The notes beneath the pieces are model-generated. The model was not told where the DNA came from and ran no database searches. It was given only the letters and a program-made list of their open reading frames with translations. From Comamonadaceae bacterium (lineage in GTDB: Bacteria; Pseudomonadota; Gammaproteobacteria; Burkholderiales; Burkholderiaceae_C): a DNA stretch of 64,000 bases. Below are positions 28,023 through 56,486 of this stretch, piece by piece. How positions within the stretch are numbered: the first letter of the stretch is position 1; each line of letters starts with the position of its first letter. The translations under genes were made by a program, and so were the position numbers. The stretch is from contig CANFWV010000004.1 in the NCBI GenBank assembly GCA_947450695.1, positions 1-64,000 on the forward strand. Reading direction: 5' to 3'.

Positions 28023-28778
28023 TTAGTGCAAAGCGTCCCAAAGCAACTTGCTGCCCGTCAGTCCCATGCCCCAGAGGATCAAGCGGTTGAACAGCAACGG
28101 ACTCATGCGCTTCCCCATGGCCAGACCCGTGAAAACTCCGATGGGGACCAACGGCAAGAGTACCAATGACGTCGCCATATTTCGCCAATCCAGCAGGCCT
28201 AACAAGGCAAACGGGACCCATTTAGACAGATTGATCACAAAGAAAAAATAAGCCATCGTTGACGCGAAGTACAGAGGGCTTAGACGCATAGGAATCACGT
28301 AAGCGGCAATGGGGGGCCCGCCTGAATGAGCAATAAAACTAGTGAAACCGGACAGGGTGCTCAAAATCACCCCGACCCAACGCGGTGGTGGCGGACTGTC
28401 AGCTTGGGGTGGGAACACCAAGCGTTGCGCCAGAAAAAGCAGCGTGAAGCCGCCCACCAAGCCAGCGACCAGGTGACTGTCCAAGGACCTGAACATCAGT
28501 GAACCCAACAGGACGCCTAGCAAGCCGTAAGGGATCAAAAAGCGCAAAAGTTTGACATCGATGTTTTTGCGAAAAGCGGCCATCCCCAACACATCGACCA
28601 ACAGCAGCACCGGCATCAAGATCGCAGCCGCTTGCGGCACCGTGATGGTGAGAGCCATCAGCGGCACAGCCAGTGAACCAATACCCATCCCAAAACCACT
28701 TTTACTGATGCCCACCAATAGCACGGCCGGCACAGCGCACAGGTAAAAAATCGGATCAGTGATGAGGGGAAAGTTCAA
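28023..28778 (-). CDS. TSUP (TauE/SafE) family membrane protein
   Basis: A 251-residue integral membrane protein with about seven to eight hydrophobic segments and the family pattern LVGISKSGFGMGIGSLAVP near the N-terminus, repeated weakly in the second half (SGFTSFIAHSGGPPIAAYV). TSUP members export or import sulfite, sulfoacetate, taurine-derived or other organic anions. Its start overlaps the livF stop (ATGA), so it is the last gene of the ABC importer operon and may handle a related anion. Confidence 0.88.
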   Translation of the reverse strand: MNFPLITDPIFYLCAVPAVLLVGISKSGFGMGIGSLAVPLMALTITVPQAAAILMPVLLLVDVLGMAAFRKNIDVKLLRFLIPYGLLGVLLGSLMFRSLDSHLVAGLVGGFTLLFLAQRLVFPPQADSPPPPRWVGVILSTLSGFTSFIAHSGGPPIAAYVIPMRLSPLYFASTMAYFFFVINLSKWVPFALLGLLDWRNMATSLVLLPLVPIGVFTGLAMGKRMSPLLFNRLILWGMGLTGSKLLWDALH

Positions 28779-29491
28779 ACCGGTACATCCAGACCCAAAT
28801 AAGCCTTCTGTATCTCGGGCCGCGTCAGCAACTCACTGGCCAAGCCTTCCGCCACGATGCGCCCTTCTTCCATCACGTAAGCCCGGTGCGCCAAGGCCAT
28901 GGCCATCGCCACGTTTTGCTCAACCAGCAGCACCGACGTCCCCTCCGCATTGATCTTGCGGATAGCGCCAAACATGTCCAATACAATCGCTGGCGCCAAA
29001 CCGAGCGAAGGCTCGTCCATCAACAGCAAACCTGGCCGAGCCATCAAAGCGCGGCCAATGGCCACCATCTGTTGCTGCCCACCTGAAAGTGATCCGGCCA
29101 GACTCTGCAGCTTCACCTTGAGTGCCGGAAACAGGGACAACACATACTCCAGCGTCTCTTGCCGCTTGGCCTTGGCCGGCGCGATATAACTGCCCAGTTC
29201 TAGGTTGTCGTAGACCGTCATCTGAGTGAACAAGCGCCGGCCTTCAGGAACGATGGCAATGCCAGCCTCGCAAAAACGGTGGCTCTCCAGTTGCGTGATA
29301 TCGCGGCCGTTGAAATTCAGCGTGCCACCGCGCACGCGGTGCATGCCGGCAATGGCGTTGATCAACGTGGTTTTGCCTGCGCCGTTGGGGCCGACCACGC
29401 ACACCATCTCGCCCGTTTTGACTTCGAGGCTGACGCCCCACAAAGCCGGTGCGGCACCGTAATTGACCAGAATATTGTCGACTTTAAGCAT
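28775..29491 (-). CDS. livF: branched-chain amino acid-type ABC transporter ATPase LivF
   Basis: A 238-residue nucleotide-binding subunit: Walker A GPNGAGKTT (about 36-44), signature LSGGQQQM, Walker B LLMDEPSLGLAP and the switch His/Glu region. The long MEDR-like C-terminal segment RAYVMEEGRIVAEG is LivF-like. The start at 29491 overlaps the fused livM-livG gene by eight bases; the longer frame from 29560 lies within that gene and is rejected. HAAT-family importers also carry amides and aromatic acids. Confidence 0.92.
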   Translation of the reverse strand: MLKVDNILVNYGAAPALWGVSLEVKTGEMVCVVGPNGAGKTTLINAIAGMHRVRGGTLNFNGRDITQLESHRFCEAGIAIVPEGRRLFTQMTVYDNLELGSYIAPAKAKRQETLEYVLSLFPALKVKLQSLAGSLSGGQQQMVAIGRALMARPGLLLMDEPSLGLAPAIVLDMFGAIRKINAEGTSVLLVEQNVAMAMALAHRAYVMEEGRIVAEGLASELLTRPEIQKAYLGLDVPV

Positions 29492-31226
29492 GCGGCGTTC
29501 CCAGGTAAGCGCTGACAACTTCAGCATTGCGCATGACGTCATGGGCGGAGCCAATCGCAATCAGTTGCCCGTGGTTAAGCACCGCCACGCGATCGGCCAG
29601 CGCCATCACCGCACGCATCACATGCTCGACAAAAACGATGGTCGCGCCACGATCGCGGATCTTCCGAATCAATTCAATCGCCTCGTTGATCTCGCCCGGC
29701 GTCAGGCCTGACAGCACCTCGTCGAGCAAGACCAGTCGCGGCCTAGAAGCCAACGCCCGCGTCAACTCCAAAAACTTGCGTTGATGCAAATTCAGATCGT
29801 CCGGCAAAGCATTCGCCTTGTCCTTGAGCCCTGTGAATTCCAGCCAGGTCCAGGCTTCGTGTGTGGCCTGCCGTTGGTCCAGGGCTGCGCCGCCAAACAT
29901 GGCGACCAGTGCCACGTTTTGCAGCACGCTCATGTGCGCAAATGGCCGAGGAATTTGGTATGTGCGCGCAATGCCGGCTTGGGCAATGCGGTGCGCGGGC
30001 AGCCCGGCGAGTTGCTGACCGGCAAAGACAATAGCGCCGCCGCTGGTCGGGTAATGACCGCTCACCACATTGATAAAGGTCGACTTGCCTGAACCATTGG
30101 GGCCAAGCAAACCAAGAATTTCACCCTCGTGAACTTGCAAGCTGACCTTGTCGAGCGCTTGCACGCCCTTGAAGGCTTTGGAGAGATCGCGCACCTCCAA
30201 AAGAATCTTGGGATCGATGAGAGGAGCGGGCACACGGGTCTCAGCAGGGGCCGAAGGGAGCGTCTCTGAAACGGCTGTATGGGCTTGTTGCTTAGCGGCC
30301 AACCGCTTGAAAAAGAAACCCAGAATGCCATTCGGCATGAATAAAATCACGACGATCAATATCACGCCCACCGCAGCTTTACCGGCCACAGGGCTGTTGC
30401 CCGCGGTGAAAAAATACAGCAGACAAGTGATGACCGTGGCGCCCACCGCCGGCCCAGCCCAGTGGCGCGTGCCCCCAAGCACACTCATCAGCACCACGGT
30501 CAGCGGCACGACGATGGTGAAAGTCTCACCCGCGGTCACGTACGACACAAACAGCGCGTGAATTCCGCCGGCCAAACCTGCCAGAGCCGACGATAAACAG
30601 AAGGCCACGAGTTTGTAGCGAAAGGTCGGCACGCCCATGACTTCAGCCACGTCTTCGTCATCGTGAATGGCGAACAGACCCGTGCCCAATTTGGACGACT
30701 GCACTTTGTAAGCGATCAACAGCGTCAACACCGCGGCGGCCAAAGCCATCAGATAAATTGATGCCGAAGCTGTCGGACCGATGGCCGGCACCGGCGTCGC
30801 ATTCAAGGAAATTCCAGGACCGCCATCGATGCGGGTGTTCAGCACAATCGTGCCGACCACAAACGTGATGGCGAGGGTCAGCAACGCGAACAATTCACCT
30901 CGCACTGCTTTGACCCTGAACACTACGGCCCCCAAGGCCAGACCCAGCAGCGCTGCCATCAGGGCGGCAGCCGGCAGCGTCCATAAAAATGGCCAATTCA
31001 GATGGGCGGCCAGACCGGCGGAGGTGTACATGCCGACGCCAAAAAAAGCGCCATGACCAAAAGAAAAATACCCGGAGTAGCCCGACAAAATGTTCCAAGA
31101 CAAAGCCAGGATCATCCAGTGGCAGATCAGGTACAAAAAGGATTCGTAGAAAGCTGGCAGGCCAAGCCAAGGCACGCACGCAAGCGTTGCTCCGGCCACC
31201 AAAATGCCGATGACTGTTTTATTCAT
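29484..31226 (-). CDS. fused LivM permease-LivG ATPase
   Basis: A 580-residue fusion. Residues 1 to about 310 form a LivM-type permease with about nine helices (WNILSGYSGYFSFGHGAFFG near 45-64). After a Pro/Ala linker (about 315-335), residues 336-580 are a complete LivG-type ATPase with Walker A GLLGPNGSGKST near 370-380, the LNLHQRKFLELTRAL signature region and VLLDEVLSGL Walker B. Fusion forces 1:1 stoichiometry. It is followed by livF (8-base overlap) and preceded by livH (3-base gap). Confidence 0.92.
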   Translation of the reverse strand: MNKTVIGILVAGATLACVPWLGLPAFYESFLYLICHWMILALSWNILSGYSGYFSFGHGAFFGVGMYTSAGLAAHLNWPFLWTLPAAALMAALLGLALGAVVFRVKAVRGELFALLTLAITFVVGTIVLNTRIDGGPGISLNATPVPAIGPTASASIYLMALAAAVLTLLIAYKVQSSKLGTGLFAIHDDEDVAEVMGVPTFRYKLVAFCLSSALAGLAGGIHALFVSYVTAGETFTIVVPLTVVLMSVLGGTRHWAGPAVGATVITCLLYFFTAGNSPVAGKAAVGVILIVVILFMPNGILGFFFKRLAAKQQAHTAVSETLPSAPAETRVPAPLIDPKILLEVRDLSKAFKGVQALDKVSLQVHEGEILGLLGPNGSGKSTFINVVSGHYPTSGGAIVFAGQQLAGLPAHRIAQAGIARTYQIPRPFAHMSVLQNVALVAMFGGAALDQRQATHEAWTWLEFTGLKDKANALPDDLNLHQRKFLELTRALASRPRLVLLDEVLSGLTPGEINEAIELIRKIRDRGATIVFVEHVMRAVMALADRVAVLNHGQLIAIGSAHDVMRNAEVVSAYLGTPHA

Positions 31227-31229
31227 TTC

Positions 31230-32087
31230 TCAGATCTTTCCGGGGCGCAATAACAGCATCAAGATCAGCAGCGAAAAAGACACGATGGGCGCCCACGAAG
31301 GCGAAGCCACCGCCATAGTGATAGCTTCACTGACACCAATGATGATGCCCGCCACCAAAGGGCCAATGGCACTGCCCAGCCCCCCCAACATGACCGCTGC
31401 AAAGATCACACCGATCCAGGCAAAAATCTGCGAAGGCGTCAGCGTGAAGGTCAGCGCCAGGCAAATACCAGCCACCGCAGCCAGAGCCGCACAAACGCCG
31501 GCAAGCATCAACGACATGCCCTTTTGGTTGATGCCAAAAGCGGCAGCAATTTGCCCGTCTTCAGCCATCGCCCGCAGCGCCTTGCCGATGTCGGTGTAAC
31601 GCATGCCCGCCCAAATGAGCAACGCGATTGAGACCGACAACACCAGTGTGACCAGCTCTGGCACCGGAATGTAGAGCGAGCCAACGGTGAACTTCAAGTC
31701 GTTGTAATGCGTTTCAAGCCTTCGGTAATCTGCCGTCCAGGCCGCCTGAATCCCGCTTTCAATCACCACCGCGATGCCGAAGGTGACCAACAGAGAATTG
31801 AAGGGTGTGATCTGAAAGCGGGCCAACAACCACTGCATGCCAACGCCAATCAAAAAGAACAGCGGCGGTAAAATCAACAGCCCCAGCAAAGGGTCCACAT
31901 GCCACACCGTGGCCATGTGGTAGCTCAGGTACGCAGCCAGAAAAACCAGCCCAAAATGGGACAGGTTGATCTGCCGAAGCATGCCCCAAGTCAGGCCAAG
32001 TCCAAGCCCAATCAAACCATACAGACCGCCGATAAAAATCCCCGAGAGGATGGATTGCGCCAGTAAATTAAAACTCGGGAAACTCAT
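31230..32087 (-). CDS. livH: branched-chain amino acid-type ABC permease LivH
   Basis: A 285-residue inner-membrane permease with about eight helices and the LivH core GGLYGLIGLGLGLTWGMLRQ near residue 20 (exactly the conserved region) and a C-terminal AVMLGGLGSAIGPLVAGI loop that contacts the ATPases. It lies between the binding-protein gene (24 bp upstream) and the fused permease-ATPase gene. Confidence 0.92.
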   Translation of the reverse strand: MSFPSFNLLAQSILSGIFIGGLYGLIGLGLGLTWGMLRQINLSHFGLVFLAAYLSYHMATVWHVDPLLGLLILPPLFFLIGVGMQWLLARFQITPFNSLLVTFGIAVVIESGIQAAWTADYRRLETHYNDLKFTVGSLYIPVPELVTLVLSVSIALLIWAGMRYTDIGKALRAMAEDGQIAAAFGINQKGMSLMLAGVCAALAAVAGICLALTFTLTPSQIFAWIGVIFAAVMLGGLGSAIGPLVAGIIIGVSEAITMAVASPSWAPIVSFSLLILMLLLRPGKI

Positions 32088-32111: not shown

Positions 32112-33314
32112 TTACTTCACTTGGAGCTTGACGCCAGGCGGCGCAAACTGCGTTGGGTAGACCACCGCCCACTTGCCGTTTTGGACCTGCTTGATCTTCA
32201 TCAGGTCATCGCCATAGTTGCCAGGGCCGTCAAAACGCAGACGACCATGAATGGTCTCAACGCGGTTCTTGCGCAACCAAGCAGCGATGGCTTTGTCGTC
32301 CAAGCTGTTGGCCCCGCGCACGCCGGCTTCCAAAATTTGCCAGGCCGAATAAGACGCTGCGGCCTGCACTTCGACACTGGTGTCGGGCAAGTTCAGTTTG
32401 GCTGCGCGCTCGTTGAAAATTTTGACGAACTGGGCTGCCGTCGGGTTGTTAGTGAACGGTGCGTGCTCTTCAAAAATCGTCACGGCCAGCGCGTTGTTGC
32501 CGTCAGCCGCTTTGCTCATCGGCCCAGGGGCCGGGTAGAGGTGGAAATGCAGCGGCGGTGTGTAGTCAATCTTTTTCATCGCGTCGAGGAGCATGTTGCC
32601 CTCAAGACCGATGTCACCGATCCAAACCAGATCGGGCTTAGCATCTTTCACCCGCGCAGCAATCGGTCCAAAGTCCCGGTTACCAAATTCCCATTCCAAA
32701 AACAGCACTTCGGTCAAGCCGCGTTTTTTAGCCACTTCACGACCTCCCAGCGACATGAAGTGAATCGATGGAAATTTGCTGGTGACGATGGCGATCGTCT
32801 TCGGTGGTTTGGGTGATGCCGCCAATGCGTCAAAAAGCGTGTTGGGCACCGTGACCTGGGGATCGGAACCCAGCGACCAGGACGGAAACTGCATGTCGTA
32901 CTTGGCCAGCGAAGGAATACCGAAGGTGTGATGCACCAACACTTTGTTATAGCGCTGCGCCACGCCCATGGCTGACAAGATTGCGCCTGTGGCGTAAGGC
33001 CCCATCAGCAGATCCACCTTGTCAGACGTCACCAGCTGTTCGTAAAGCGTGCGCGCCAACTCGGGCTTGGACTGATCGTCTTTGACTGTCCACTCGACCT
33101 TGCGGCCCAGCAACCCACCGCGCGCGTTGAGTTGCTCGATGTAAATTTCACCAACCAATTTATGCGTCAGAGCGGTCGACGACAACGGGCCCGTCAAAGC
33201 CAGCGTGCTGCCGATGCGCACCGGACCGGGCGCCTGCGCCTGCACCGCTGCGGTGAATGTCAAGGCTGCCCCCACGGCAGTCACCCCAAGCAAAGTTCTT
33301 CTAGTCGTTTTCAT
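32112..33314 (-). CDS. LivK-type periplasmic substrate-binding protein
   Basis: A 400-residue type I periplasmic binding protein with a signal peptide cut near residue 27 (AAVQAQA). Family features are GSTLALTGPLSSTA at the start of the mature chain, GGLLGRKVEWTVKDDQSKPE and GPYATGAILSA in the binding cleft. It belongs to the ABC importer encoded downstream. The ligand is not predictable; in catabolic clusters this group often binds aromatic acids or amides rather than leucine. A GGAGACAAAC ribosome site precedes it. Confidence 0.9.
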   Translation of the reverse strand: MKTTRRTLLGVTAVGAALTFTAAVQAQAPGPVRIGSTLALTGPLSSTALTHKLVGEIYIEQLNARGGLLGRKVEWTVKDDQSKPELARTLYEQLVTSDKVDLLMGPYATGAILSAMGVAQRYNKVLVHHTFGIPSLAKYDMQFPSWSLGSDPQVTVPNTLFDALAASPKPPKTIAIVTSKFPSIHFMSLGGREVAKKRGLTEVLFLEWEFGNRDFGPIAARVKDAKPDLVWIGDIGLEGNMLLDAMKKIDYTPPLHFHLYPAPGPMSKAADGNNALAVTIFEEHAPFTNNPTAAQFVKIFNERAAKLNLPDTSVEVQAAASYSAWQILEAGVRGANSLDDKAIAAWLRKNRVETIHGRLRFDGPGNYGDDLMKIKQVQNGKWAVVYPTQFAPPGVKLQVK

Positions 33315-33377: not shown

Positions 33378-34367
33378 TCAGTCGACCTGTGCACCTGAGC
33401 GTTTGACCAAGTCGGCCCACTTGGTGATTTCAGTCCGACCAAAACTGCCCAGTTCATCGGGCTTCATGTTGCGCAACTCCAGGCCTTGCACACCGAGCTT
33501 GGCGATCACCTCCGGGTTCGCCATAGCTTGTGCGGCGGCGTCCCGCAAACGGGCCAAAACAGCTGCCGGCGTAGCCGCAGGCGCGTACAACATGAACCAA
33601 GCCACCAAGTCAAAATCAGGCACACCTTGCTCGACCAAGGTCGGCACATCGGGTGCAGCCGCACTGCGTTTGGCACTGGACGCGCCGAGTGCGCGAAGCT
33701 TGCCCGACTTGATGTGCGGCATCACCGCCGCCGGGTGGTAGAACATGAACTGCACCTGCCCACCCATCACGTCGGTCAAGGCCTGACCGCCTTCTTTGTA
33801 AGGCACATGGACCATGTCACCACCCACGCGAGCCTTCAACAACTCACCAGCCAGATGGCCTGAGGTGCCATTGCCCGCAGACGAATAACTCACCTTACTG
33901 CCGGGCTGAGTGGCTTGTGCCGCCAAATCTTTCACAGACTGGAGCGGTGAATTCGCGGCAACCACCAACAGGGTCGGCGTGTAACCGGCAAACGCCACAG
34001 GCGCGAAGTCTTTCAACGGGTCATAGGGGAGCTTCTTGAACAGCGTGGCGTTGATCGCGTGCGTACCGACTGTGCCCATGACGATGGTGTAACCATCTGC
34101 CGCTGATTTGGCCACCAAATCTGAGCCAATGACGCCACCCGCACCAGCGCGGTTTTCAATCACCACGGACTGTCCCAACGGCTTACTCAATCCTTCCGCG
34201 ATCACCCGAGAAATAATATCGGTGGTCGTTCCAGGACCAAACGGCACGACCAGCTTGATCGGCCGCTGTGGGTAGTCTTGCGCTTGGGCGGCCAGAGCGC
34301 TCAATCCAAAACCAACCGCGGCCAACAGACCGGCTGCCAGTGCGCTACGGCTTGAGCCTGAAGTCAT
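33378..34367 (-). CDS. Bug-family tripartite tricarboxylate receptor
   Basis: A 329-residue periplasmic binding protein. The signal peptide ends near residue 30 (LSALAAQAQ) before YPQRPIKLVVPFGPGTTTD. The middle SYSSAGNGTSGHLAGE and the MVHVPYKEGGQALTDV segments are typical. Its start overlaps the CaiB-type CoA-transferase stop (ATGA), so it is translationally coupled to the CoA-transferase and citryl-CoA-lyase genes, suggesting that it binds the acid those enzymes activate and cleave. Confidence 0.92.
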   Translation of the reverse strand: MTSGSSRSALAAGLLAAVGFGLSALAAQAQDYPQRPIKLVVPFGPGTTTDIISRVIAEGLSKPLGQSVVIENRAGAGGVIGSDLVAKSAADGYTIVMGTVGTHAINATLFKKLPYDPLKDFAPVAFAGYTPTLLVVAANSPLQSVKDLAAQATQPGSKVSYSSAGNGTSGHLAGELLKARVGGDMVHVPYKEGGQALTDVMGGQVQFMFYHPAAVMPHIKSGKLRALGASSAKRSAAAPDVPTLVEQGVPDFDLVAWFMLYAPAATPAAVLARLRDAAAQAMANPEVIAKLGVQGLELRNMKPDELGSFGRTEITKWADLVKRSGAQVD

Positions 34368-35542
34368 ACGTTACTTTCATTCGCAGCCGGCGTTTGCTGG
34401 TAAGCCGCACGAGCAGCCCAGCCACGCGCGAACTCTGCGTTGTGCTGACCCAGCAGCGGCGGCGCAGTGACGTCGAGCGAACGCTCGCCGTCAAACGACA
34501 AGGGTGAGCGCACCGTCTTGAAAGTACCGACAACCGGGTGGGGCGCCTCAACAAACAACTGCAGGTGTTGCGCTTGCGGGTCTTGCGGCACCTCGGCGGT
34601 GGTGTAAACCGGCGCGTTCGGCACGTCTTCAGCTACCAATCGAGCACACCACTCCGCCCGCGAGCGCAGCTTGAAAGTCGCGGCCAGAACATGCATCAGC
34701 GCTTCTTGGTTCTCGATGCGCGCTTGCCGCGTGGCAAAGCGCGGGTCTTCGAAAATATCGTGACGCTCCAACGCTGTCGCTAGCCCTTGCCAGAATTTAG
34801 GCGGGGACGACATGTGCAGCGCCAACCACAAACCATCGCTGCACTGCATCACATACGACTGCGACACGCTGGGCCGACTGAACGGACCCATGACTTCATC
34901 AGCAGAAAACAAATGCGTGAAGGCGTCCAGATTAAAGTGTGTCATGGCCTCCATCATGGAGACCTCGACCTTGCGACCAAGGCCTGTTTCATGCCTTTCG
35001 TGCAACGCGCCAAGCACGCCATAAGCGGCATAAAACCCGGTCAGCGCATCGGCCAGCGCCGGTCCCACCACACGCGGATTGGCGGGGTTGATCAACAGTC
35101 CTAAAAATCCGCTGGCCGCTTGCGCCACGGTGTCGTAACTTGGGCGATCCGCATACGGACCGGTCGGCCCGAAGCCGCTGATAGCGCAGTAAATCAAGCG
35201 TGGATTGATCTTTTGCAAACGCGCTTGGCCAGCCCCAATCTGCTCAGCCACGCCAGGCCGGAAGTTCTGAATATAAACATCGGCTTCGCGGATCAAATCG
35301 TCAAAGCGCGCCAAATCAGCCGCGTCTTTGGTGTTCAGCGTGATGCTGCGTTTGTTGCGGTTGTAGGTCTGAAAGTGCGGGCTGTACAACTCACCCTGAA
35401 AGGCCCGAAACGGATCTCCGGTGACCGGCAACTCGACCTTCACCACATCTGCACCCAAGTCGGCCAGCAGCATGGAGGCGGCCGGTCCGGTGATGAAGGT
35501 GCCGTGCTCGACGACCTTGACGTTGGCAAGAACTTGAGCCAT
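34364..35542 (-). CDS. CaiB/BaiF family CoA-transferase
   Basis: A 392-residue class III CoA-transferase. Recognised by VKVVEHGTFITGPAASMLLADLGADVVKVE (here in part), the catalytic-Asp region in NRNKRSITLNTKDA and the QNFRPGVAEQIG segment. It transfers CoA between an acyl-CoA and a free acid through an aspartyl thioester. The start at 35542 is seven bases past the citryl-CoA-lyase-like gene; a longer in-frame start at 35620 lies inside it. Together with that lyase it resembles activation and cleavage of itaconate- or citramalate-like acids. Confidence 0.9.
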   Translation of the reverse strand: MAQVLANVKVVEHGTFITGPAASMLLADLGADVVKVELPVTGDPFRAFQGELYSPHFQTYNRNKRSITLNTKDAADLARFDDLIREADVYIQNFRPGVAEQIGAGQARLQKINPRLIYCAISGFGPTGPYADRPSYDTVAQAASGFLGLLINPANPRVVGPALADALTGFYAAYGVLGALHERHETGLGRKVEVSMMEAMTHFNLDAFTHLFSADEVMGPFSRPSVSQSYVMQCSDGLWLALHMSSPPKFWQGLATALERHDIFEDPRFATRQARIENQEALMHVLAATFKLRSRAEWCARLVAEDVPNAPVYTTAEVPQDPQAQHLQLFVEAPHPVVGTFKTVRSPLSFDGERSLDVTAPPLLGQHNAEFARGWAARAAYQQTPAANESNV

Positions 35543-35549
35543 TGCGCGT

Positions 35550-36347
35550 TCAGCCCGCTGTCGGCATGTCGCCGGTGTATTCCTGCCCTTGCGTGGCTTG
35601 GTACGACAGTGCAAAACCAATCGGATCTTCCAACTCTTCGTTCAAGTGGGCAATCAGACTGGCCGTGCGTGCCAACATGGGGACACCTTTGAGCGCATTG
35701 ACGGGGAAACCAACGCCCAGCAGCACCGCAGGAATCGCGCCGGAAACATTCATCCGGAGTTCCTTGCCAACCACCTCAGGGATGATGGCCTCTACCACTT
35801 TGGCGATTTCAACATAACGCTGGCCACCACCCGCCGCGAGGGAGACTTCAAGCAAACGGACAGCGCGCGGATCACTCCGCTTGTGCTCTGGGTGACCGTA
35901 ACCGGCAATCGGCAATTTGCGCGCACGCAAATCGGTCACCACGACGCGTGCCGCCGCATGCAAATCGCCGCCGTGTTTCTCAGCTTCTTTTTCGACGGCC
36001 AAAAACAAACGCCCAGCCGTTTCAGATGCACCCAAAATCACCGAGCCTGAACCCAACAATCCGGCCGCAACGGCCCCCTGCATGGCATCCGGCGCAGCGG
36101 CTAAAGTCATGCGGGCCGCTTGAACGCTGGGCACCAAGCCGTGTTCAGCAATCGCCACCAAAGTGGAATTCAGCACCGCACTGGTCGCCGCATCAGCACG
36201 GCGTCCGGTCACTAGCAAGTAGAAGTAGTCGCCAAAATTGATATGCCCAATCAGGTCGCGGGACAAGTCCGCGCCGCGAACCACAATCGTGTCTTCGTTC
36301 GAGGTGCAGATGGCTGAGCGGGGTTGGGTGGCCTTGCCAATTTTCAA
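35550..36347 (-). CDS. citryl-CoA lyase-like protein (citrate synthase fold)
   Basis: A 265-residue protein with only the C-terminal catalytic half of citrate synthase, the size of citryl-CoA lyase/short citrate-synthase-like proteins rather than the 430-residue synthase. The conserved catalytic-type loop GYGHPEHKRSDPRA (about 172-185) and the segment NFGDYFYLLVTGR are visible. It would cleave a citryl-CoA-type thioester to acetyl-CoA plus an oxoacid. It is followed by a CaiB-type CoA-transferase that could supply the thioester. Confidence 0.82.
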   Translation of the reverse strand: MKIGKATQPRSAICTSNEDTIVVRGADLSRDLIGHINFGDYFYLLVTGRRADAATSAVLNSTLVAIAEHGLVPSVQAARMTLAAAPDAMQGAVAAGLLGSGSVILGASETAGRLFLAVEKEAEKHGGDLHAAARVVVTDLRARKLPIAGYGHPEHKRSDPRAVRLLEVSLAAGGGQRYVEIAKVVEAIIPEVVGKELRMNVSGAIPAVLLGVGFPVNALKGVPMLARTASLIAHLNEELEDPIGFALSYQATQGQEYTGDMPTAG

Positions 36348-36378
36348 AATGAGACTCCTGAGATGGAATGAAAAACGT

Positions 36379-39997: not shown

Positions 39998-40020
39998 AGA
40001 GTTCTCCAGAATCAATGCAA

Positions 40021-48517: not shown

Positions 48518-49473
48518 TTCGGTGCGGCCTTCATCACTGCGCCTAAGGTGATGAATTCTTCTTTGATGTAGGCGTCAAATTGTTCAGGTTTCATGGGCAT
48601 GGATTCTGCGCCCAACTTGGCCATACGCTCCTTGACAGCAGGCTGCTCAAGGATCTTCGCGATTTCAACGTTGAGCTTGTTGACCACGGCGCGCGGTGTC
48701 TTCGCCGGTGCCAGCAGGCCAATCCAGAAGTCGAACACAAAACCCGGCAGACCGGCTTCGGCCACCGTCGGCACGTCAGGCATGGCGCCCGAGCGCTTGG
48801 CGGTACTGACGGCCAAGGCCCGCATGCGGCCGTCACGGATCGTCGAAATGGACGCCAGCACCGGCGTGAACATGAAGTCAACCCGACCTGAACTGGTTTC
48901 AACAATGGTCTCTGGCGTTCCCTTGAACGGAATATGCGTGATTTGAATTCCAGCCACACTGCGGAATTTTTCAGCATTCACGTGGGTTGCGCTGCCAACG
49001 CCAGCCGAAGCATAGTTGAGTGAGTCTGGCTTGGCCTTGGCAGCGGCGATTAGATCTTTCACCGTCTTGAACGGGCTGCCAGAACCCACCACCAGCACGT
49101 TCGGCAGAGAGGCCAGCGGGGAGATACCGGCAAAGTCCGCCACAGTGTCGTAAGTTAAGCCTGGGTACAAGGTCGGGTTGACCACATGGCCCGTAGACAC
49201 CACCAACAGCGTGTAGCCGTCGGGTTCGCTCTTGGCCACTTGCGCCGACCCCAATGTGCCGCCGGCACCGGGCCGGTTGTCAACGATCACAGATTGGCCC
49301 AGACTGACGCTCAGCCTTTCACCGACGACGCGCGCCATGATGTCGGTCGCACTTCCAGCGGTAAAAGGCACGACGATTTTGATCGTCTTGTTCGGGTAGT
49401 CAGCACCCGTTGGTTGCGCACTGACGGTGGCAACAGACAAGACCGCAGCACAGGCGATTAAAAAGCGTTTCAT
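48514..49473 (-). CDS. Bug-family tripartite tricarboxylate receptor
   Basis: A 319-residue periplasmic protein with a signal peptide ending near residue 20 (VATVSAQ) before YPNKTIKIVVPFTAGSATD. Marks include NYASAGVGSATHVNAEKF and ITHIPFKGTPETIVETS. The start at 49473 follows a GGAG site; the frame open to 49629 is rejected as the added 52 residues are not a leader. Its stop overlaps the [2Fe-2S] gene start, so the receptor is translated with the hydroxylase and probably binds its substrate or a relative. Confidence 0.92.
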   Translation of the reverse strand: MKRFLIACAAVLSVATVSAQPTGADYPNKTIKIVVPFTAGSATDIMARVVGERLSVSLGQSVIVDNRPGAGGTLGSAQVAKSEPDGYTLLVVSTGHVVNPTLYPGLTYDTVADFAGISPLASLPNVLVVGSGSPFKTVKDLIAAAKAKPDSLNYASAGVGSATHVNAEKFRSVAGIQITHIPFKGTPETIVETSSGRVDFMFTPVLASISTIRDGRMRALAVSTAKRSGAMPDVPTVAEAGLPGFVFDFWIGLLAPAKTPRAVVNKLNVEIAKILEQPAVKERMAKLGAESMPMKPEQFDAYIKEEFITLGAVMKAAPK

Positions 49474-49540: not shown

Positions 49541-50920
49541 TCAATGCACAGAGCCCAACCCAAGCGCCAAAGCGATTTTTTCGCCCGACTGCTGCAAGGC
49601 GCGCAAATGGGGTTGCAAGTCAACGCCAAGCAACAGACCTGCGCGTTTTTTCCATTGACCCGCCACCATGACGCTGTCGATGTTTGCCAGCGAGGTTTGC
49701 ATGACGACTGAATTCACGACATCGTGCACCGGCTGCATGTTCAGATCGGTGGCGCGGATCATCACCAAATCAGCCTGTTTACCAGTGGCCAGAGAACCAA
49801 TACGGTCCGCCTGTTTCAGCATGCGTGCGCCCTCGATAGTGACCCATGACAAGGCTTCCCGAGTAGTCACAGTGGACGTATTGGGGATGCTGCCGTGCAG
49901 GTCCCGATGGGCTGCATTGTCGAGGGAACGCTGCATGCCGAGGGCCACGCGAGCCTGCACCAACATCTCACCACTGATAGCGCTTTCAAGATCAACACCC
50001 AGCGATGGTGCACGGCCAAATGCGCGCAGACGCCCAGTGATCGGGTAACCATGACCTTGCGTCATTTCACTTTCCGGCGCGGCGGAAAAGCTCATGCCGA
50101 GATCGCAAAAACGCTTCAGCTGGGCGTCGCTCAAAGCATGGCCATGAACGATGTTGATGTGGTCACCAAGCAGCCCGGCGACCTCCAACTTTTCCCAGCC
50201 GTCTGGCGTGCGGGCTGGCCCACCGCCTTGGTGCAGCGAAGCGATCAGCCCGAGCTCCTTGGCCATGGCAAAGTCGTGCATGGCAACGTCCAGCGTCGAA
50301 TAATGGGGGCCCAGCACCGCAGCCTGCACACTCAACAAAGAGCGGCCTTGATGCACTTTGAGCAAGCGCTCAATCTCAGCGCGCGGATGAGGAACTTCCC
50401 AAAAAGGCGTCTGCCCGGGCAGTGGGTCCGGCTTGGGCGTGCCATGAAAAAATGCAGCCCGAATACCCGAGGCCAGCAAACCGGCAATCGCCGCGTCATT
50501 GGACTCTGGCGTCGGGTTGTTATGACACCAATCGGCCAGCGTGGTGGTGCCGCAGTTGAGCTGGTTCAACGCCCCGACCAAGGTGGCGATGTACAAGTCT
50601 TGCGGTTCGAACACCGTCGCCAGACCGGCGTGCATCTTGCGGAAATATTCGAGCAAAGTCCAGTTTGAAGCCAGTCCGCGCAAGGCTGTCTGCCAAGTGT
50701 GCATGTGGGCATTCACCAGCCCCGGGATGACGATGTAACCGCTGCCATCAATCACCTCCGCGTCATCCACATGAATGCGCGGCGCAATTTCAGTGAGCGT
50801 CTCACCCGTGATGAGAATGTCGCCCTGCGGCAGATCACCCTGCGCATCCATCGTGATGATAGACGCGCCGCGGATCAGACTGCGTTTAGCTTGGACTGGC
50901 TGGGAACGCTGGGTGACCAT
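49541..50920 (-). CDS. ATZ/TRZ family amidohydrolase
   Basis: A 459-residue metal-dependent amidohydrolase. The zinc-binding His72-x-His74 is in PGLVNAHMHTWQ; a third His lies in SLHQGGG, a fourth in NIVHGHAL, followed by the usual acidic residue near SAAPESEM. Family members deaminate or dechlorinate s-triazines, 8-oxoguanine, S-adenosylhomocysteine and related N-heterocycles. Beside a molybdenum hydroxylase it may remove an amino or amide group from a hydroxylated heterocycle. It lies three bases from the next dehydrogenase gene. Confidence 0.87.
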   Translation of the reverse strand: MVTQRSQPVQAKRSLIRGASIITMDAQGDLPQGDILITGETLTEIAPRIHVDDAEVIDGSGYIVIPGLVNAHMHTWQTALRGLASNWTLLEYFRKMHAGLATVFEPQDLYIATLVGALNQLNCGTTTLADWCHNNPTPESNDAAIAGLLASGIRAAFFHGTPKPDPLPGQTPFWEVPHPRAEIERLLKVHQGRSLLSVQAAVLGPHYSTLDVAMHDFAMAKELGLIASLHQGGGPARTPDGWEKLEVAGLLGDHINIVHGHALSDAQLKRFCDLGMSFSAAPESEMTQGHGYPITGRLRAFGRAPSLGVDLESAISGEMLVQARVALGMQRSLDNAAHRDLHGSIPNTSTVTTREALSWVTIEGARMLKQADRIGSLATGKQADLVMIRATDLNMQPVHDVVNSVVMQTSLANIDSVMVAGQWKKRAGLLLGVDLQPHLRALQQSGEKIALALGLGSVH

Positions 50921-50923
50921 GAC

Positions 50924-51859
50924 TCAGGACTCCAGACCGTCGCTCATTTTCACGTTTTCCGAGGTCAGTACCAGGCCGGCATCGGCGGCCGTTTCTTGCA
51001 ACAGCACGGCAAAATCAATGTCTTCATGGCCGCGGCCAACCATGCGCGACACCGACTCGCGTGTGGCTGCTGCTGCAGGCATGGCGACGCCATAAGTACG
51101 TGCAGCAGCCAAACCCAAGTCCATGTCTTTGAGCAACAGTTTGGGCGTGAAAGTGACTTGATCAAACGTCAGGTTCGTCAGCATCGGAGTCTTGTACTTG
51201 GTGTACATCGAACCGAGCACAGAGTCGTTGATGCTCTCAAGAAAGATATGACGCGGAATCCCGGCTTTTTCAGCCAACACGGTGATCTCACACAGGTTCT
51301 GAATCACGACACCAAACATGGTGTTGTGCGCGATTTTCCAGATGCGCGCCAGCTCACCCTCGCCGACCCACATCACCTTGCGCGCCATCGCTTGCAGGCA
51401 AGGCTCGATTTCGGCGTACAACGCTTTCGGACCTGAGGCCACTTGCAGCAATTTACCGGCCTTGGCGACCTTGGCGTTGCCTGACACCGGGCTGCACAAG
51501 TAGCCCACGCCCATCGCTTCAAGGCGCTGACGAACCTCCGCCGAACCCTCTTGAGAAATGGAGGAGCTGTCGATCACCACCTTGGGCTTGGCCGAACCGG
51601 CCACCAAACCACCGTCGCCAAACAACACTTCTTTCAGGTCGTTGGTGGTTGAGACCATGGTGAAAACGAAATCGCAGTGGGCCAAGTCTTGCTTGGTGGC
51701 GACAATCGTGGCGCCGTATTCAACCAGCGGCGCAGCTTTGGAGGCAGTGCGGTTCCAGACGCTGACCTTGTGACCGGCCTTGAGCAGCCGCTTGGACATG
51801 GCCTCGCCCATACGACCCAACCCGATCCATCCAATTTGCTTCCCCGTTGTCAATGTCAT
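50924..51859 (-). CDS. 3-hydroxyisobutyrate dehydrogenase family oxidoreductase, copy 2
   Basis: A 311-residue beta-hydroxyacid dehydrogenase with Rossmann motif IGWIGLGRMGEAMSKRL (about 9-25), substrate loop VVIDSSSISQEGSAEV and catalytic Lys in ARIWKIAHNTMFG. The start at 51859 (MTLTTGKQ) is chosen over an in-frame start at 51976, whose extra 39 residues cover an intergenic stretch. It is only distantly similar to copy 1. It is followed immediately by the amidohydrolase gene. Confidence 0.88.
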   Translation of the reverse strand: MTLTTGKQIGWIGLGRMGEAMSKRLLKAGHKVSVWNRTASKAAPLVEYGATIVATKQDLAHCDFVFTMVSTTNDLKEVLFGDGGLVAGSAKPKVVIDSSSISQEGSAEVRQRLEAMGVGYLCSPVSGNAKVAKAGKLLQVASGPKALYAEIEPCLQAMARKVMWVGEGELARIWKIAHNTMFGVVIQNLCEITVLAEKAGIPRHIFLESINDSVLGSMYTKYKTPMLTNLTFDQVTFTPKLLLKDMDLGLAAARTYGVAMPAAAATRESVSRMVGRGHEDIDFAVLLQETAADAGLVLTSENVKMSDGLES

Positions 51860-51976: not shown

Positions 51977-52970
51977 TTAATCGAGCGTTGCGCCCGAGAG
52001 TCGGACGATCTCGGCCCATTGAGCGCTCTCTTTTTTAATCCGTGCGGCGTACGCTGTTGGACCACCCAATAGCGGTACGGCGCCCTCCACGCCCAGACGG
52101 GACTGAAATTCGGCCGTGGCGGCGATCTTCAGAATTTGCATGGCCAACTCGTTGATCACCGCGTCGGGTGTGCCACGGGGCGCCAGCAATCCATAGGTCA
52201 GCGTGCTTTCGAAATCGGCGAGTGTGCTGATACCCGACTCGGCGATGGTCGGCACGTCTGGCATCGACGGATTGCGTTTGGCACTCGTCACGGCGATGGC
52301 GCGCAAACGTCCGCTGGCGACCAAGGCCAAGGCAGGTGGAATCACGCTGAACATCATCTGCACCTGGCTGCCGACGAGATCAGTGATTGCCGGCGCGGTG
52401 CCTTTGTAGGGGATGTGGCTGAGCTTGACACCGGTCTTGTGCTCAAACAATTCGCCGCACAAGTGGCCACCCGTACCACCGCCACTGGAGGCGTAATTGA
52501 CCCGGCCCGGCTCTGACTTAGCCAGTGCCAGCAGATCGGCCACTGACTTGACCTTCGACGAAGCGGGCACCACCAAGACCAACGCCGATGACGCAAACAT
52601 GGCGACTGGCGCCAAGTCTTTCTGGGTGTCGTATTTCAGTTGCTTGTACAGCGCCGGATTGATCGACACCGTACCCGAGTGACCGAGCAGCAGCGTGCTA
52701 CCGTCGGCCGGGCTGCGCACCACGAGCTCGGTGCCAATGTTGCCGCCTGCGCCCGGCTTGTTGTCAACCAGCACGCTTTGATTGCGCAGCTCGCCCAAGC
52801 TTTTGGCCATCTGACGGCCGAACACATCGTTGCCACCACCGGGCGCAAAAGGCACCACGATCTTGATCGGTTTGCCTTGGGCGCGAGCGGCCAAGCTGAA
52901 GAAAGACCAAGCAGCCCCCCCCAAAAATAGCCACCAAGACTTGGCGGCGGTTGGGGGTGGTGAACGTCAC
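51977..52970 (-). CDS. Bug-family receptor with apparent frameshift in its signal peptide
   Basis: The body (MGGAAWSFFSLAARAQGKPIK onward in part) is a normal Bug receptor, including VPFAPGGGNDVFG and NYASSGGGTGGHL. Its proper leader is in another frame: from a GTG at 52970, two bases past the thiolase stop, VTFTTPNRRQVLVAIFGG leads to a run of eight G (minus strand, 52915-52922). With seven G the two parts would join into a complete Tat-like leader. So this is a sequencing error, a slippage-controlled gene or a broken gene. As it stands the frame starts at a TTG with no proper leader. Confidence 0.8.
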
Positions 52971-52972: not shown

Positions 52973-54178
52973 TTAAACCCGCTCGAGAATCAGCGCAATA
53001 CCTTGACCCACCCCGATGCACATGGTGCACAGCGCGTAGCGGCCACCCGTGGCATGCAAGCGGTTGACGGCCGTCGTGGCCAACCGGGCGCCCGAAGCGC
53101 CCAACGGGTGCCCCAACGCAATCGCGCCGCCCCAGGCATTCACGCGGACATCGTCATCTTGCAAACCGAGCTGGCGCAACACGGCCAAACCCTGCGCTGC
53201 AAACGCTTCGTTGAGCTCGATCACGTCCAGTTGTTCCAGCTTGAGACCCGTCAGCGCCAACACTTTTTGCGTGGCCGGTGCGGGGCCGATGCCCATGATG
53301 CGCGGTGGCACGCCGGCTGTCGCCATGCCCACAATGCGGGCACGCGGTGTCAAGCCATTCTTGGCAGCGCTGGCTTCATCGGCCAACAACAGCGCACAAG
53401 CACCATCATTCACGCCGCTGGCGTTACCGGCCGTCACGGTGCCATCTGGACGCACCACGCCTTTGAGCTTGGCCAGCGTTTCCATGGTGGTGGCCCGTGG
53501 GTGCTCATCTGTGTCAACGACGATCGCATCACCCTTTTTCTGGGCGATCGTGACAGCGGTGATTTCGCGTGCAAAGTGACCCGCTTTTTGTGCTGCCACG
53601 GCGTTTAACTGGCTGGCTAGCGCCATACGGTCTTGCGATTCGCGATCGATATTGAAATCCGTCGCCACGTTCTCAGCCGTCTCAGGCATGGAGTCGACGC
53701 CGTACGCTTGCTTCATCAGTTTGTTGACGAAGCGCCAGCCGATGGTCGTGTCGTAGACCGCGTTGGCACGGCTGAAGGCGCTCTCCGCCTTCGGCATGAC
53801 AAACGGTGCGCGGCTCATGCTTTCAACGCCGCCAGCGATCATCAGACCGGCTTCTCCGGAACGAATTGCACGGGCGGCTGTACCCACAGCATCAAGACCC
53901 GAACCGCACAAGCGGTTGATGGTGGCACCCGGAACTTCAAACGGTAAGCCGGCCAGCAAGCTCGACATGTGGGCCACGTTGCGGTTGTCTTCGCCTGCTT
54001 GATTGGCACAGCCGTAGATCACGTCGGTGATGGCTTGCCAGTCCACATTAGGGTTACGTGCCATCAGTGCGCGCAGAGGAATGGCACCGAGGTCATCAGC
54101 GCGAACGCTTGATAATGCGCCGCCATAACGGCCGAAAGGTGTGCGGATAGCGTCGCAAATAAAAGCTTGTGAACTCAT
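52973..54178 (-). CDS. pcaF: 3-oxoadipyl-CoA thiolase
   Basis: Cleaves 3-oxoadipyl-CoA to succinyl-CoA and acetyl-CoA. The 401-residue thiolase has catalytic Cys91 in NRLCGSGLDAV, the His in GHPLGASGARL and the second Cys in CTMCIGVGQG. PcaF-like features include GCANQAGEDNRNVA near residue 57. The start at 54178 follows a standard leader; the frame open to 54289 is not needed. It lies 37 bp downstream of pcaJ and completes the route from 3-oxoadipate. Confidence 0.94.
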   Translation of the reverse strand: MSSQAFICDAIRTPFGRYGGALSSVRADDLGAIPLRALMARNPNVDWQAITDVIYGCANQAGEDNRNVAHMSSLLAGLPFEVPGATINRLCGSGLDAVGTAARAIRSGEAGLMIAGGVESMSRAPFVMPKAESAFSRANAVYDTTIGWRFVNKLMKQAYGVDSMPETAENVATDFNIDRESQDRMALASQLNAVAAQKAGHFAREITAVTIAQKKGDAIVVDTDEHPRATTMETLAKLKGVVRPDGTVTAGNASGVNDGACALLLADEASAAKNGLTPRARIVGMATAGVPPRIMGIGPAPATQKVLALTGLKLEQLDVIELNEAFAAQGLAVLRQLGLQDDDVRVNAWGGAIALGHPLGASGARLATTAVNRLHATGGRYALCTMCIGVGQGIALILERV

Positions 54179-54215: not shown

Positions 54216-54878
54216 TCAGGCGGCCACGGCGATCGGCAGACCGAGCATTTTTTCAAGCTCAGCGTGCGCCAAGCCGTCCACCATGTCAATTAGCAACAGA
54301 CCTTTTGGCGTGCATTCAAGCGTGGCCAGTTCGGAGTAAATCCGCTTGACGCAGCCTATGCCGGTGATCGGATAACTGCACTCGCTGACAACTTTGCTCT
54401 CGCCTTTTTTTGTCAGCAAATCCATCATCACCCACGTCTGCTTGGCACCGATCGCCAAGTCCATGGCACCGCCAACGGCTGGAATCGCGTCTTTTTCGCC
54501 AGTGCTCCAGTTCGCTAGGTCACCCGTTGCGCTGACCTGAAACGCACCCAGAACGCAAATGTCCAAATGCCCACCGCGCATCATGCTGAAGCTGTCTGCG
54601 TGGTGAAAATAAGCCCCCCCTGGCAGCAGGGTCACCGGCTGCTTGCCAGCGTTGATCAGGTCGTAGTCTTCATCACCCGCTGCGGGCGCCGGACCCATGC
54701 CCAAAATACCGTTTTCGCTTTGCAGAATCACTTCAATGCCGGCCGGCAAATGATTCGCCACCAGCGTCGGCATACCGATGCCGAGGTTGACGTAAGCACC
54801 GTCATGAATGTCTTTGGCCACGCGCTGGGCCAACTGCTCTTTGCTGCGTTTTTGATAGCTAATGTCACTCATGCTCAT
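54216..54878 (-). CDS. pcaJ: 3-oxoadipate CoA-transferase subunit B
   Basis: A 220-residue class I CoA-transferase beta subunit. The active-site Glu is in LQSENGILGMGP (SENG motif, about 53-56). GIGMPTLVANHLP precedes it. With PcaI it moves CoA from succinyl-CoA to 3-oxoadipate. The start overlaps the pcaI stop (ATGA), giving balanced subunit synthesis. Confidence 0.94.
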   Translation of the reverse strand: MSMSDISYQKRSKEQLAQRVAKDIHDGAYVNLGIGMPTLVANHLPAGIEVILQSENGILGMGPAPAAGDEDYDLINAGKQPVTLLPGGAYFHHADSFSMMRGGHLDICVLGAFQVSATGDLANWSTGEKDAIPAVGGAMDLAIGAKQTWVMMDLLTKKGESKVVSECSYPITGIGCVKRIYSELATLECTPKGLLLIDMVDGLAHAELEKMLGLPIAVAA

Positions 54879-55576
54879 GCCGCCTTTTTAAAACCGCCGG
54901 CCTGGGTGGCGACGCGGTCAATCTTCACAATTTTGCTGACAAAAATGCCGGGGGTGACGATGTTCTCTGGGTCGAGTGTGCCCAGTTCCACCACCTCGTG
55001 GACCGTGGCCACGGTCATCTTCGCGGCGGTCGCCATCACCGGGCCAAAGTTGCGCGCAGCCTTGCGGTAAAGCAAGTTACCCCAGCGGTCGCCGGTTTCG
55101 GCTTTGATCAATGCCACGTCGGCGTAAATCGGCATTTCGAGCACGTAAAACTTACCGTTGATCTCGCGGGTTTCTTTGCCCTTGGCCAGCTCAGTGCCGT
55201 AGCCTGTCGGTGAGAAAAAAGCCCCGATGCCAGCACCTGCGGCGCGAATGCGCTCAGCCAAATTGCCCTGAGGAACCAGTTCCAATTCAAGCTTTCCACT
55301 GCGGTAGAGAGCGTCAAAAATTTGGCTGTCAGCTTGCCGCGGAAAGCTGCAAATGATCTTGCGCACTTGGCCGGCCTTGAGCAAAGCCGCCAGACCAGTT
55401 TCACCGTTGCCGGCGTTGTTGTTGACGATGACGAGGTCCTTCGCGCCTTGCGCGATCAGTCCGTCAATCAACTCATTGGGAATGCCGGCGGTGCCAAACC
55501 CGCCAATCATCACGGTGGAACCATCTTTCACCTCGGCCAAGGCCGCAGTGATGGACGGGGCAATTTTGTTGATCAT
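54875..55576 (-). CDS. pcaI: 3-oxoadipate CoA-transferase subunit A
   Basis: A 233-residue alpha subunit with the CoA-transferase motif MIGGFGTAGIPNELIDGL near residue 22-39 and IGAFFSPTGYGT in the second half. It is first gene of pcaIJF and is divergent from the IclR-type regulator gene. The shared 94-bp region contains an inverted repeat plus direct repeat of the PcaU/PcaR type, so protocatechuate-pathway intermediates such as 3-oxoadipate may control it. Confidence 0.93.
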   Translation of the reverse strand: MINKIAPSITAALAEVKDGSTVMIGGFGTAGIPNELIDGLIAQGAKDLVIVNNNAGNGETGLAALLKAGQVRKIICSFPRQADSQIFDALYRSGKLELELVPQGNLAERIRAAGAGIGAFFSPTGYGTELAKGKETREINGKFYVLEMPIYADVALIKAETGDRWGNLLYRKAARNFGPVMATAAKMTVATVHEVVELGTLDPENIVTPGIFVSKIVKIDRVATQAGGFKKAA

Positions 55577-55646: not shown

Positions 55647-55670
55647 GAATTTTAGGAGATTCCAGGCGCC

Positions 55671-56486
55671 ATGGCAACCAGCTCATCAACATCGCTTTCC
55701 AGCCTAGACAAACCCCCAGTCCCCGGTGACAACTACGTTCAGTCTTTTGCCCGAGGCCTGCGAGTCATCCGCTCTTTCAGTGCTCAGTCGCCCCGTCAAA
55801 CATTGACCGAAGTCGCCGGCCGCAGTGAACTCACGCGGGCCGGCGCCAGACGCATTTTGCTGACCCTGCAAAGTCTGGGCTACGTCGAAGGCGATGGTAA
55901 GTTGTTCAGCCTGACGCCGCGCATTCTGGACCTCGGTTTCGCCTATTTGTCGTCAATGCCCATCTGGAATTTGGCTGAACCCATCATGGAGGCCTTGGTC
56001 GATGAGGTCAAGGAATCTTGCTCCGCCGCCGTGCTGGAGGGCACCGACATTATTTATGTGCTGCGCGTGCCGACCCACAAGATCATGAGCATCAGTCTGG
56101 GCGTGGGTTCGCGCTTGCCGGCCTACTGCACCTCGCTGGGCCGCGTACTGCTGGCAGGCCTGCCAGATGAAGAAGTGCTGAGCCGCTTACAGGCCAGCGA
56201 CCGCAAAGCCCTGACCCGCCACACGCTGACCGACGCGCGCGAGCTACTGACCAAGGTCCAAGCCACGCGCAAGCAAGGCTGGTCGTTGGTCAATCAGGAG
56301 CTGGAAGAGGGCCTCGTGTCATTGGCGGCGCCAGTGACCAACCGGGAAGGCCGCACCGTGGCGGCACTCAACATCAGCGGCCAAGCCAACCGCACCAGCG
56401 CCAAGATCATGCAAGACAGCATGTTGCCGGCGCTGCTGGCCGCTGCCAAAACCATTTCAACGCTGCTGGCTGTGAAGCGGGCTTGA
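55671..56486 (+). CDS. pcaR: IclR family regulator, PcaR/PcaU type
   Basis: A 271-residue regulator: winged HTH at about 24-85 (YVQSFARGLRVIRSF, then RSELTRAGARRILLTLQSLGYV) and an IclR effector domain (SCSAAVLEGTDIIYVLRV, LGRVLLAGLPDEEV). Sequence style and position, divergent from pcaIJF, identify the PcaR/PcaU/CatR branch, usually activators responding to 3-oxoadipate or protocatechuate. AGGAG lies 12 bases before the ATG, somewhat far. A weak CTAACG/CGTTAG hairpin follows the gene. Confidence 0.85.
   Translation: MATSSSTSLSSLDKPPVPGDNYVQSFARGLRVIRSFSAQSPRQTLTEVAGRSELTRAGARRILLTLQSLGYVEGDGKLFSLTPRILDLGFAYLSSMPIWNLAEPIMEALVDEVKESCSAAVLEGTDIIYVLRVPTHKIMSISLGVGSRLPAYCTSLGRVLLAGLPDEEVLSRLQASDRKALTRHTLTDARELLTKVQATRKQGWSLVNQELEEGLVSLAAPVTNREGRTVAALNISGQANRTSAKIMQDSMLPALLAAAKTISTLLAVKRA

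Follow-up and report, generated by a model that had tools for sequence, protein, structure and literature searches.

We analyzed a 64,000-nucleotide window of DNA (contig CANFWV010000004.1, C4, of the 3.34 Mb, 119-contig assembly GCA_947450695.1) from a lake bacterium of the Comamonadaceae. In it lies a 27-kb gene run of 28 minus-strand genes, from TauE (28023) to PcaI (55576), within which a LysR-type regulator gene (41322-42242) is the sole plus-strand member. An earlier account drawn from the letters alone (the sequence-only reading) had seen nearly thirty minus-strand genes broken only by one LysR gene; this layout was borne out, and the supercluster is real, its order being conserved in relatives. 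From the gene families, the iron ligands of the dioxygenases, the conserved order and the separability of the blocks, we read the locus, with a probability of roughly 0.7, as a modular funnel into hydroxyquinol, fixed in its chromosomal site and swappable among relatives in its upper part; the reactions above hydroxyquinol, the substrate and the regulation are those that we infer below. Gene names (AtzA, MoL, HQD1, NMT1 and the rest) are working labels assigned in this analysis; genomes, contigs, loci and families carry G, C, L and f numbers.

In the direction of transcription the order is PcaI, PcaJ, PcaF, Bug4, HIBADH2, AtzA, Bug3, MoS, MoL, NMT1, CMD, HIBADH1 and MacA and, past LysR, HQD2, YciI, Dabb, NTF2, Bug2, NTR, HQD1, CitLy, CaiB, Bug1, LivK, LivH, LivMG, LivF and TauE; the right-hand edge is a plus-strand IclR-type gene for a PcaR/PcaU regulator (55671-56486; TIGR02431 above cut-off). 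Four-nucleotide overlaps join Bug3/MoS, MoS/MoL and MoL/NMT1 and, after a 28-nt gap past NMT1, CMD/HIBADH1 and HIBADH1/MacA. The long runs of ATGA overlaps described earlier do tie these genes together, yet they form two runs and no single unbroken chain, because of the gap between NMT1 and CMD, and the Bug3/MoS overlap is GTGA. Further overlaps of this length join PcaI/PcaJ, CaiB/Bug1 and livF/TauE. Within contig reach, and single-gene losses aside, the order is common to relatives down to 57% MoL identity, and the cluster is therefore more than chance; relatives known by name that have MoL at 88-94% comprise metagenome-assembled genomes of Polaromonas and Comamonadaceae. The hydroxyquinol set occupies a fixed site beside trmL-comF-ubiG. 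Loci were compared in a table of 49 locus sets from stretches of at most 20 kb, with the remote MoL loci L060-L067 read and kept outside it; 44 of 49 HQD places outside the own genome were read (left out were the second places in G612, G769, G795 and G492, plus G651:C99). Internal stops at the compared loci all fall inside the last 10 residues of the match. Sixty-one genomes of the genus were counted by hand, 27 of them AtzA-positive (AtzA at 75% or more) and 34 AtzA-negative.

The lower route to succinyl-CoA and acetyl-CoA is supported by family and context, and is an ordinary, well-known one. Both HQD1 (36379-37275; PF04444+PF00775) and HQD2 (40298-41155) are Dioxygenase_N/Dioxygenase_C proteins, and the best PDB match of HQD2, a predicted hydroxyquinol 1,2-dioxygenase, is the hydroxyquinol 1,2-dioxygenase 1tmx (E 1.3e-84), above chlorocatechol and catechol enzymes. 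The iron ligands Y, Y, H and H (1tmx numbering) show no variation in the alignments, with 33/33 sequences for HQD2 (55% or more) and 12/12 for HQD1, own included. MacA (42239-43342), the putative maleylacetate reductase, belongs to the Fe-ADH family, with no curated maleylacetate reductase model among the profile matches listed. Its function and that of HQD2 are anchored by a relative, G043, since adjoining orthologues of the two (72% and 78%, respectively) sit there in a gamma-resorcylate operon, behind genes for a gamma-resorcylate decarboxylase (3s4t match, E 1.7e-228), an acyl-CoA-dehydrogenase-type monooxygenase and a flavin reductase. This is the canonical resorcinol-to-hydroxyquinol layout, on the known route from gamma-resorcylate through resorcinol and hydroxyquinol to maleylacetate. 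For the 3-oxoadipate steps, PcaF (52973-54178), a 3-oxoadipyl-CoA thiolase, scores 697 bits against an equivalog cut-off of 597 for TIGR02430, and the CoA-transferase subunits PcaJ (B; 54216-54878; TIGR02428) and PcaI (A; 54875-55576; TIGR02429) exceed their subfamily cut-offs. The full lower pathway claimed at the outset (two hydroxyquinol-type dioxygenases, MacA, PcaIJ and PcaF) has thus been upheld by families, curated cut-offs, ligands and the G043 orthologues: HQD2 and/or HQD1 would open the hydroxyquinol ring, MacA would convert maleylacetate to 3-oxoadipate, and PcaIJ with PcaF would yield succinyl-CoA and acetyl-CoA. In published work on p-nitrophenol and trichlorophenol degradation, this lower route is described as well (PMC3485097, PMC3975901). 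Gamma-resorcylate/resorcinol clusters share with the window the hydroxyquinol dioxygenase and maleylacetate reductase, PcaIJ/PcaF and the orthologues of HQD2 and MacA; the window, in contrast, has an amidohydrolase, a HIBADH pair and a molybdenum hydroxylase instead of a flavin monooxygenase (FMO) and a decarboxylase, and none of its 28 genes is a resorcylate decarboxylase or a flavin-dependent resorcinol hydroxylase.

Upstream of this route stands AtzA (49541-50920), a TRZ/ATZ-type amidohydrolase and PRK08204 member (559 vs 391 bits), with two proteins of the beta-hydroxyacid dehydrogenase family (PF03446+PF14833), HIBADH1 (43339-44235) and HIBADH2 (50924-51859), which keep the K..N motif, K and N being invariant in the alignment. 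AtzA, HIBADH(s), MacA and an intradiol dioxygenase travel together, also outside the family and without a molybdenum hydroxylase alongside, on Bosea plasmids, in Skermanella, in Paraburkholderia D15, in seven genomes of the alphaproteobacterial family f88 and in G062. Among 398 sampled genomes besides the own, matches at E 1e-100 or better came from 7, all of this one alphaproteobacterial family; their loci hold MacA and a HIBADH1-like gene (7/7), LysR (6/7), Dabb (6/7) and FMO (2/7, one cut by the stretch end). The LysR regulator (PF00126+PF03466) has an orthologue of 53-56% adjoining the unit at both Bosea loci and at 6/7 f88 loci, and the Dabb protein (39662-40012, start set inside a longer open reading frame; PF07876) adjoins MacA in Bosea and others. 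In Paraburkholderia D15 there are HQD, Dabb, AtzA, RutE-like and MacA genes, with no HIBADH found; in Skermanella a MoS-like match of 39% lies some 2 kb beyond the unit, on the other strand and without MoL; and G062, of another Burkholderiales family, has a compact NTR...FMO-HQD2-HIBADH1-AtzA-HIBADH2-PcaJ-PcaI-MacA set. In G109 (L134), of another genus of the family, PcaIJF, HIBADH1, MacA, LysR, HQD2, a TRAP transporter (DctP, DctM), YciI and Dabb stand beside the same trmL-comF-ubiG, with neither AtzA nor the molybdenum block in the stretch. AtzA homologues at 37-47% directly follow FAD-dependent oxidoreductase/monooxygenase genes in Burkholderia, Shinella and Cupriavidus. Within the genus, HQD2 at 65% or more occurs in 22/27 AtzA-positive and 7/34 AtzA-negative genomes (Fisher p 2.4e-6, a value inflated by shared ancestry). 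Judged by these comparisons, hydroxyquinol catabolism repeatedly includes the amidohydrolase-HIBADH unit, which has no name in the literature searched, where no described amidohydrolase-HIBADH-hydroxyquinol cluster was found, most subscription literature being outside reach.

What AtzA does is less conventional than its fold. Its metal ligands H72, H74, H230, H259 and D310 (HxH, H, H, D) are invariant in 39/39 sequences at 55% or more, own included, and it shares fold and metal ligands with TRZ/ATZ aminohydrolases and chlorohydrolases; unlike them, it has a glycine, three residues past the third metal histidine and again in 39/39, in place of the HxxE glutamate of 3hpa and 7ww2. This glutamate is the acid/base of TRZ/ATZ enzymes, and because it is missing throughout, a standard deaminase or chlorohydrolase role for AtzA appears doubtful.

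The molybdenum hydroxylase, for which no equivalog model scored above cut-off, consists of a large subunit, MoL (45795-48026; PF02738+PF20256), and a [2Fe-2S] small subunit, MoS (48023-48517; PF01799+PF00111). MoL is present in 18 of the 49 locus sets, accompanied by NMT1 in all 18 and by CMD in 17. The well-covered clusters of G004, G051 and G056 are without MoS, MoL, NMT1 and CMD and keep PcaIJF, HIBADH2, AtzA, HIBADH1, MacA, LysR, HQD2, YciI, Dabb, NTF2, NTR, HQD1, CitLy, CaiB and the Liv genes; a PRK06126-type FMO gene stands in them beside LysR, between LysR and MacA. G041 (AtzA 96%) and G034 have kept NMT1 and lack MoS and MoL at the site, with remoter MoL homologues (50% at most) elsewhere in both. 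FMO, HQD2 and PcaIJF occupy the site in G026, G033 and G049, with neither AtzA nor MacA in the stretch; G057 has FMO 1.1 kb from HQD2 on one contig; and an FMO homologue (28-68%) directly adjoins HQD in 7/37 other HQD stretches, two-component hydroxylases not being counted. The window has no flavin monooxygenase gene, and the best FMO match of the own genome, among matches at E 1e-60 or better, is 39%. By these distributions, the molybdenum block is a lineage-specific addition and a possible stand-in for a flavin monooxygenase. A bolder proposal, that the molybdenum hydroxylase, with cytoplasmic NMT1-fold and CxxC-bearing CMD proteins, replaced FMO in this lineage as the ring hydroxylation before hydroxyquinol cleavage, taking O from water and not from O2, and that AtzA performs a new chemistry and is no deaminase, seems to us unlikely.

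The same block underlay the suggestion that the substrate may be an N-heteroaromatic. One indivisible pathway, in which the molybdenum hydroxylase acts first and the amidohydrolase deaminates or opens the ring before hydroxyquinol is reached, would account for the contiguity and the 4-nt overlaps, and for the finding that MoL at 57% or more occurs in the genus only in AtzA-positive genomes (19/27, one partial, G022, vs 0/34; p 7.5e-10, inflated by shared ancestry); the amidase genes seen by eye in the G004 and G051 clusters and another contig of the own genome point the same way. On that contig (G000:C89, L104, 6.1-9.1 kb) homologues of NMT1, MoS and MoL (52, 50 and 47%) are neighbours again, with about 1 kb between NMT1 and MoS. 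Against it, AtzA units stand without MoL in the stretches of G004, G051, G056, G062, Bosea, Skermanella, Paraburkholderia and f88, the G041 and G034 sites contain neither MoS nor MoL, MoL relatives at 55-56% outside the genus are without AtzA (L060, L062), and AtzA lacks the HxxE glutamate. We therefore judge this pathway improbable; an N-heteroaromatic substrate as such is possible and not favoured, and the suggestion found no support; it leans on the molybdenum hydroxylase, the most dispensable block. Nicotinate, picolinate and quinoline pathways were dropped, no ring-opening genes of those routes being seen. Cyclitol or glycoside precursors fit some relatives, by their sugar-type ABC (ATP-binding cassette) genes, and nothing in the window: L159 (G315, 8.6-19.2 kb) combines LysR, HQD, Dabb and MacA with genes of the Gfo/Idh/MocA and xylose-isomerase-like TIM-barrel types and with what look by eye like sugar ABC genes, a set that suggests a cyclitol or glycoside route to hydroxyquinol in that genome.

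A second separable block comprises HQD1, CitLy (35550-36347), a citryl-CoA lyase-like protein (PRK06224.1-5, 316 vs 193 bits cut-off), CaiB (34364-35542), a CaiB/BaiF CoA-transferase (PF02515), and Bug1 (33378-34367), a TctC-type receptor (PF03401). HQD1-CitLy-CaiB-Bug1 stands alone in another genus (L167) and is therefore a module in its own right; in the window (33378-37275) it probably doubles ring cleavage, and its association of an intradiol dioxygenase with CoA-transferase and citryl-CoA lyase-like partners is perhaps an alternative lower route. An HQD-CitLy pair was also seen in L180, and in L124 (G811, 8.8-13.0 kb) MacA and an intradiol dioxygenase are each split over two frames, by mutation or assembly error. 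Redundancy of the two ring-cleaving genes fits the observations, because either has been lost singly in different relatives: HQD1 is present and HQD2 absent in G055, L029 and G041, and HQD2 is present with HQD1 absent from its expected stretch in G015, G059, G013 and G034. Speaking against redundancy are the further intradiol genes elsewhere in several genomes and G040 (L059, 11.4-11.7 kb), where, by eye, there is an N-terminal HQD2 remnant only and no HQD1 at the site, with much of the cluster kept. The solitary module in L167 would also suit an accretion of unrelated catabolic blocks with only the lower pathway in common, as would the independent gain and loss of blocks and the presence, beside a Liv system, of four Bug receptors, all of which may differ in specificity. 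Such accretion is nevertheless unlikely in our estimation: the 18 MoL-bearing sets share their order within contig reach, single-gene losses aside, and the AtzA-MacA-dioxygenase association recurs, in differing order, in distant lineages.

Among the small proteins, YciI (40021-40326; PF03795) is a distant homologue of TftG, its best PDB match (4lbh, E 1.6e-5 over 84 residues), and PMC3975901 describes TftG as converting chlorohydroxyhydroquinone to hydroxybenzoquinone. A leaving-group or dehalogenation chemistry on a substituted (hydro)quinone, as in the degradation of 2,4,5-trichlorophenoxyacetate (2,4,5-T), with YciI and AtzA removing the substituent to give hydroxyquinol, would agree with this match, with the nearness of YciI to HQD (adjacent in L149, 3 kb apart in L134), with the chlorohydrolases among AtzA-fold enzymes and with two GST genes near HQD2 in G033. 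The match is weak, however, HI0828 scoring nearly as well; G053 has no YciI, although the rest of its cluster genes show 85-97% identity; and AtzA is without HxxE, so that we hold this chemistry to be rather improbable. The tftEFGH genes of 2,4,5-T degradation likewise unite a maleylacetate reductase, a YciI protein (TftG) and a hydroxyquinol dioxygenase, but the window is without a tftCD-like monooxygenase, and its YciI is dispensable and only distant to TftG. The 4-chlorophenol cph cluster of A. chlorophenolicus is reported to have two functional hydroxyquinol dioxygenases (PMC3975901); two such genes, in the window predicted ones, in one cluster are the likeness, and the cph monooxygenases have no counterpart in the window cluster.

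NTR (37345-37929), of the nitroreductase family, is predicted to be RutE-like, exceeding the equivalog cut-off of NCBIfam PRK05365 (malonic semialdehyde reductase RutE; 273 vs 152 bits); together with the HIBADH enzymes it might conceivably act on a C3 side chain. NMT1 (44848-45798; PF09084), an NMT1/THI5-like protein, shows no evident signal peptide, as by hydropathy it lacks the hydrophobic N-terminus that livK and Bug1-3 have; neither a permease nor an ATPase gene adjoins it, and its NCBIfam matches are weak ones to SsuA and TAXI only; the idea of a dihydroxyphthalate-type decarboxylase was dropped on the same matches. CMD (44232-44819; PF02627), AhpD-like, keeps both CxxC cysteines in 33/33 aligned sequences, some from the same genome; a Bmp8-like debrominase was dropped (E 0.022). 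AlphaFold models of NMT1 and CMD have a mean predicted local distance difference test score (pLDDT) of 37.0 and 42.0, from 8 and 7 near-identical sequences, respectively. An NMT1 homologue (33%) was also seen on the Achromobacter plasmid pA81 (L099), beside HIBADH-like, NIPSNAP, VOC, YciI and FAH genes and next to a chlorocatechol operon. NTF2 (39031-39648; PF13577) is a SnoaL_4/NTF2-like protein. Transport genes comprise four TctC-type (Bug) receptors, the remaining ones being Bug2 (37975-38979), Bug3 (48514-49473) and Bug4 (51977-52924, start uncertain), all PF03401, and Liv-type ABC genes: livK (32112-33314; PF13458), a binding protein with a signal-like N-terminus, the permease livH (31230-32087; PF02653), a livM-livG permease-ATPase fusion (29484-31226; PF02653+PF00005) and the ATPase livF (28775-29491; PF00005; synteny). 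TauE (28023-28778; PF01925) is a TauE/SafE-type permease.

Taken together, a cyclic substrate would enter through the Bug/Liv-type systems, and AtzA with the two beta-hydroxyacid dehydrogenase-type enzymes would lead it into a hydroxyquinol pool; the molybdenum hydroxylase, with NMT1 and CMD, may add or replace a hydroxylation step for which relatives would use a flavin monooxygenase, and the probable part of the RutE-like flavoprotein and of YciI is to keep both hydroxyquinol and hydroxybenzoquinone in play. Several observations weigh against this modular funnel. The upper genes match no named pathway, and many relatives' assemblies are incomplete. The distance from FMO to MacA is below 1 kb in G056, but in G004 (L184, 14.4-20.0 kb) and G051 (L186, 16.8-20.0 kb) about 8 kb of other genes (by eye the amidase, TRAP-type transporter genes and a second LysR) part the two, so that the position of FMO is not simply that of the molybdenum block. 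The exchange of MoL and FMO is a trend only, the 27 AtzA-positive genomes dividing into 15 with MoL only, 5 with FMO only, 4 with both and 3 with neither (p 0.07; FMO at 65% or more), the two genes standing less than 20 kb apart in G044. Nor is the unit invariant: L029 is without CMD and HQD2, G009 is without HIBADH1, the G040 locus retains much of the cluster without an intact HQD2 or HQD1, and G025 and G044 have the HQD2 block on a different contig from the AtzA-Mo block. The idea that the whole serves a single pathway is partly upheld. The co-travel of AtzA, HIBADH, MacA and the intradiol dioxygenase speaks for that idea, yet the HQD1 and molybdenum blocks are separable; its strict form fails because relatives carry blocks at unrelated loci, the refuting condition that the sequence-only reading had itself set out (L167, the HQD2 contigs of G025 and G044, and the sites of G004, G051, G056, G041 and G034 that lack all or part of the molybdenum block).

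Catabolic routes for lignin-derived, humic and pollutant aromatics cross at hydroxyquinol. The final steps found here are known; the feeder genes are modular, mostly uncharacterised and, among relatives, mixed and matched. By name, the upper part still matches no pathway, as had been said from the start, and a compact form of its amidohydrolase section is found again in Bosea, in Skermanella, in Paraburkholderia and in seven other alphaproteobacterial genomes. Relatives offer natural losses and swaps, so that strain comparison can probe what each block does. Overall, the recurring unit of an amidohydrolase and beta-hydroxyacid dehydrogenases points to substrates that would arrive at hydroxyquinol along a path of which the literature searched has no description.

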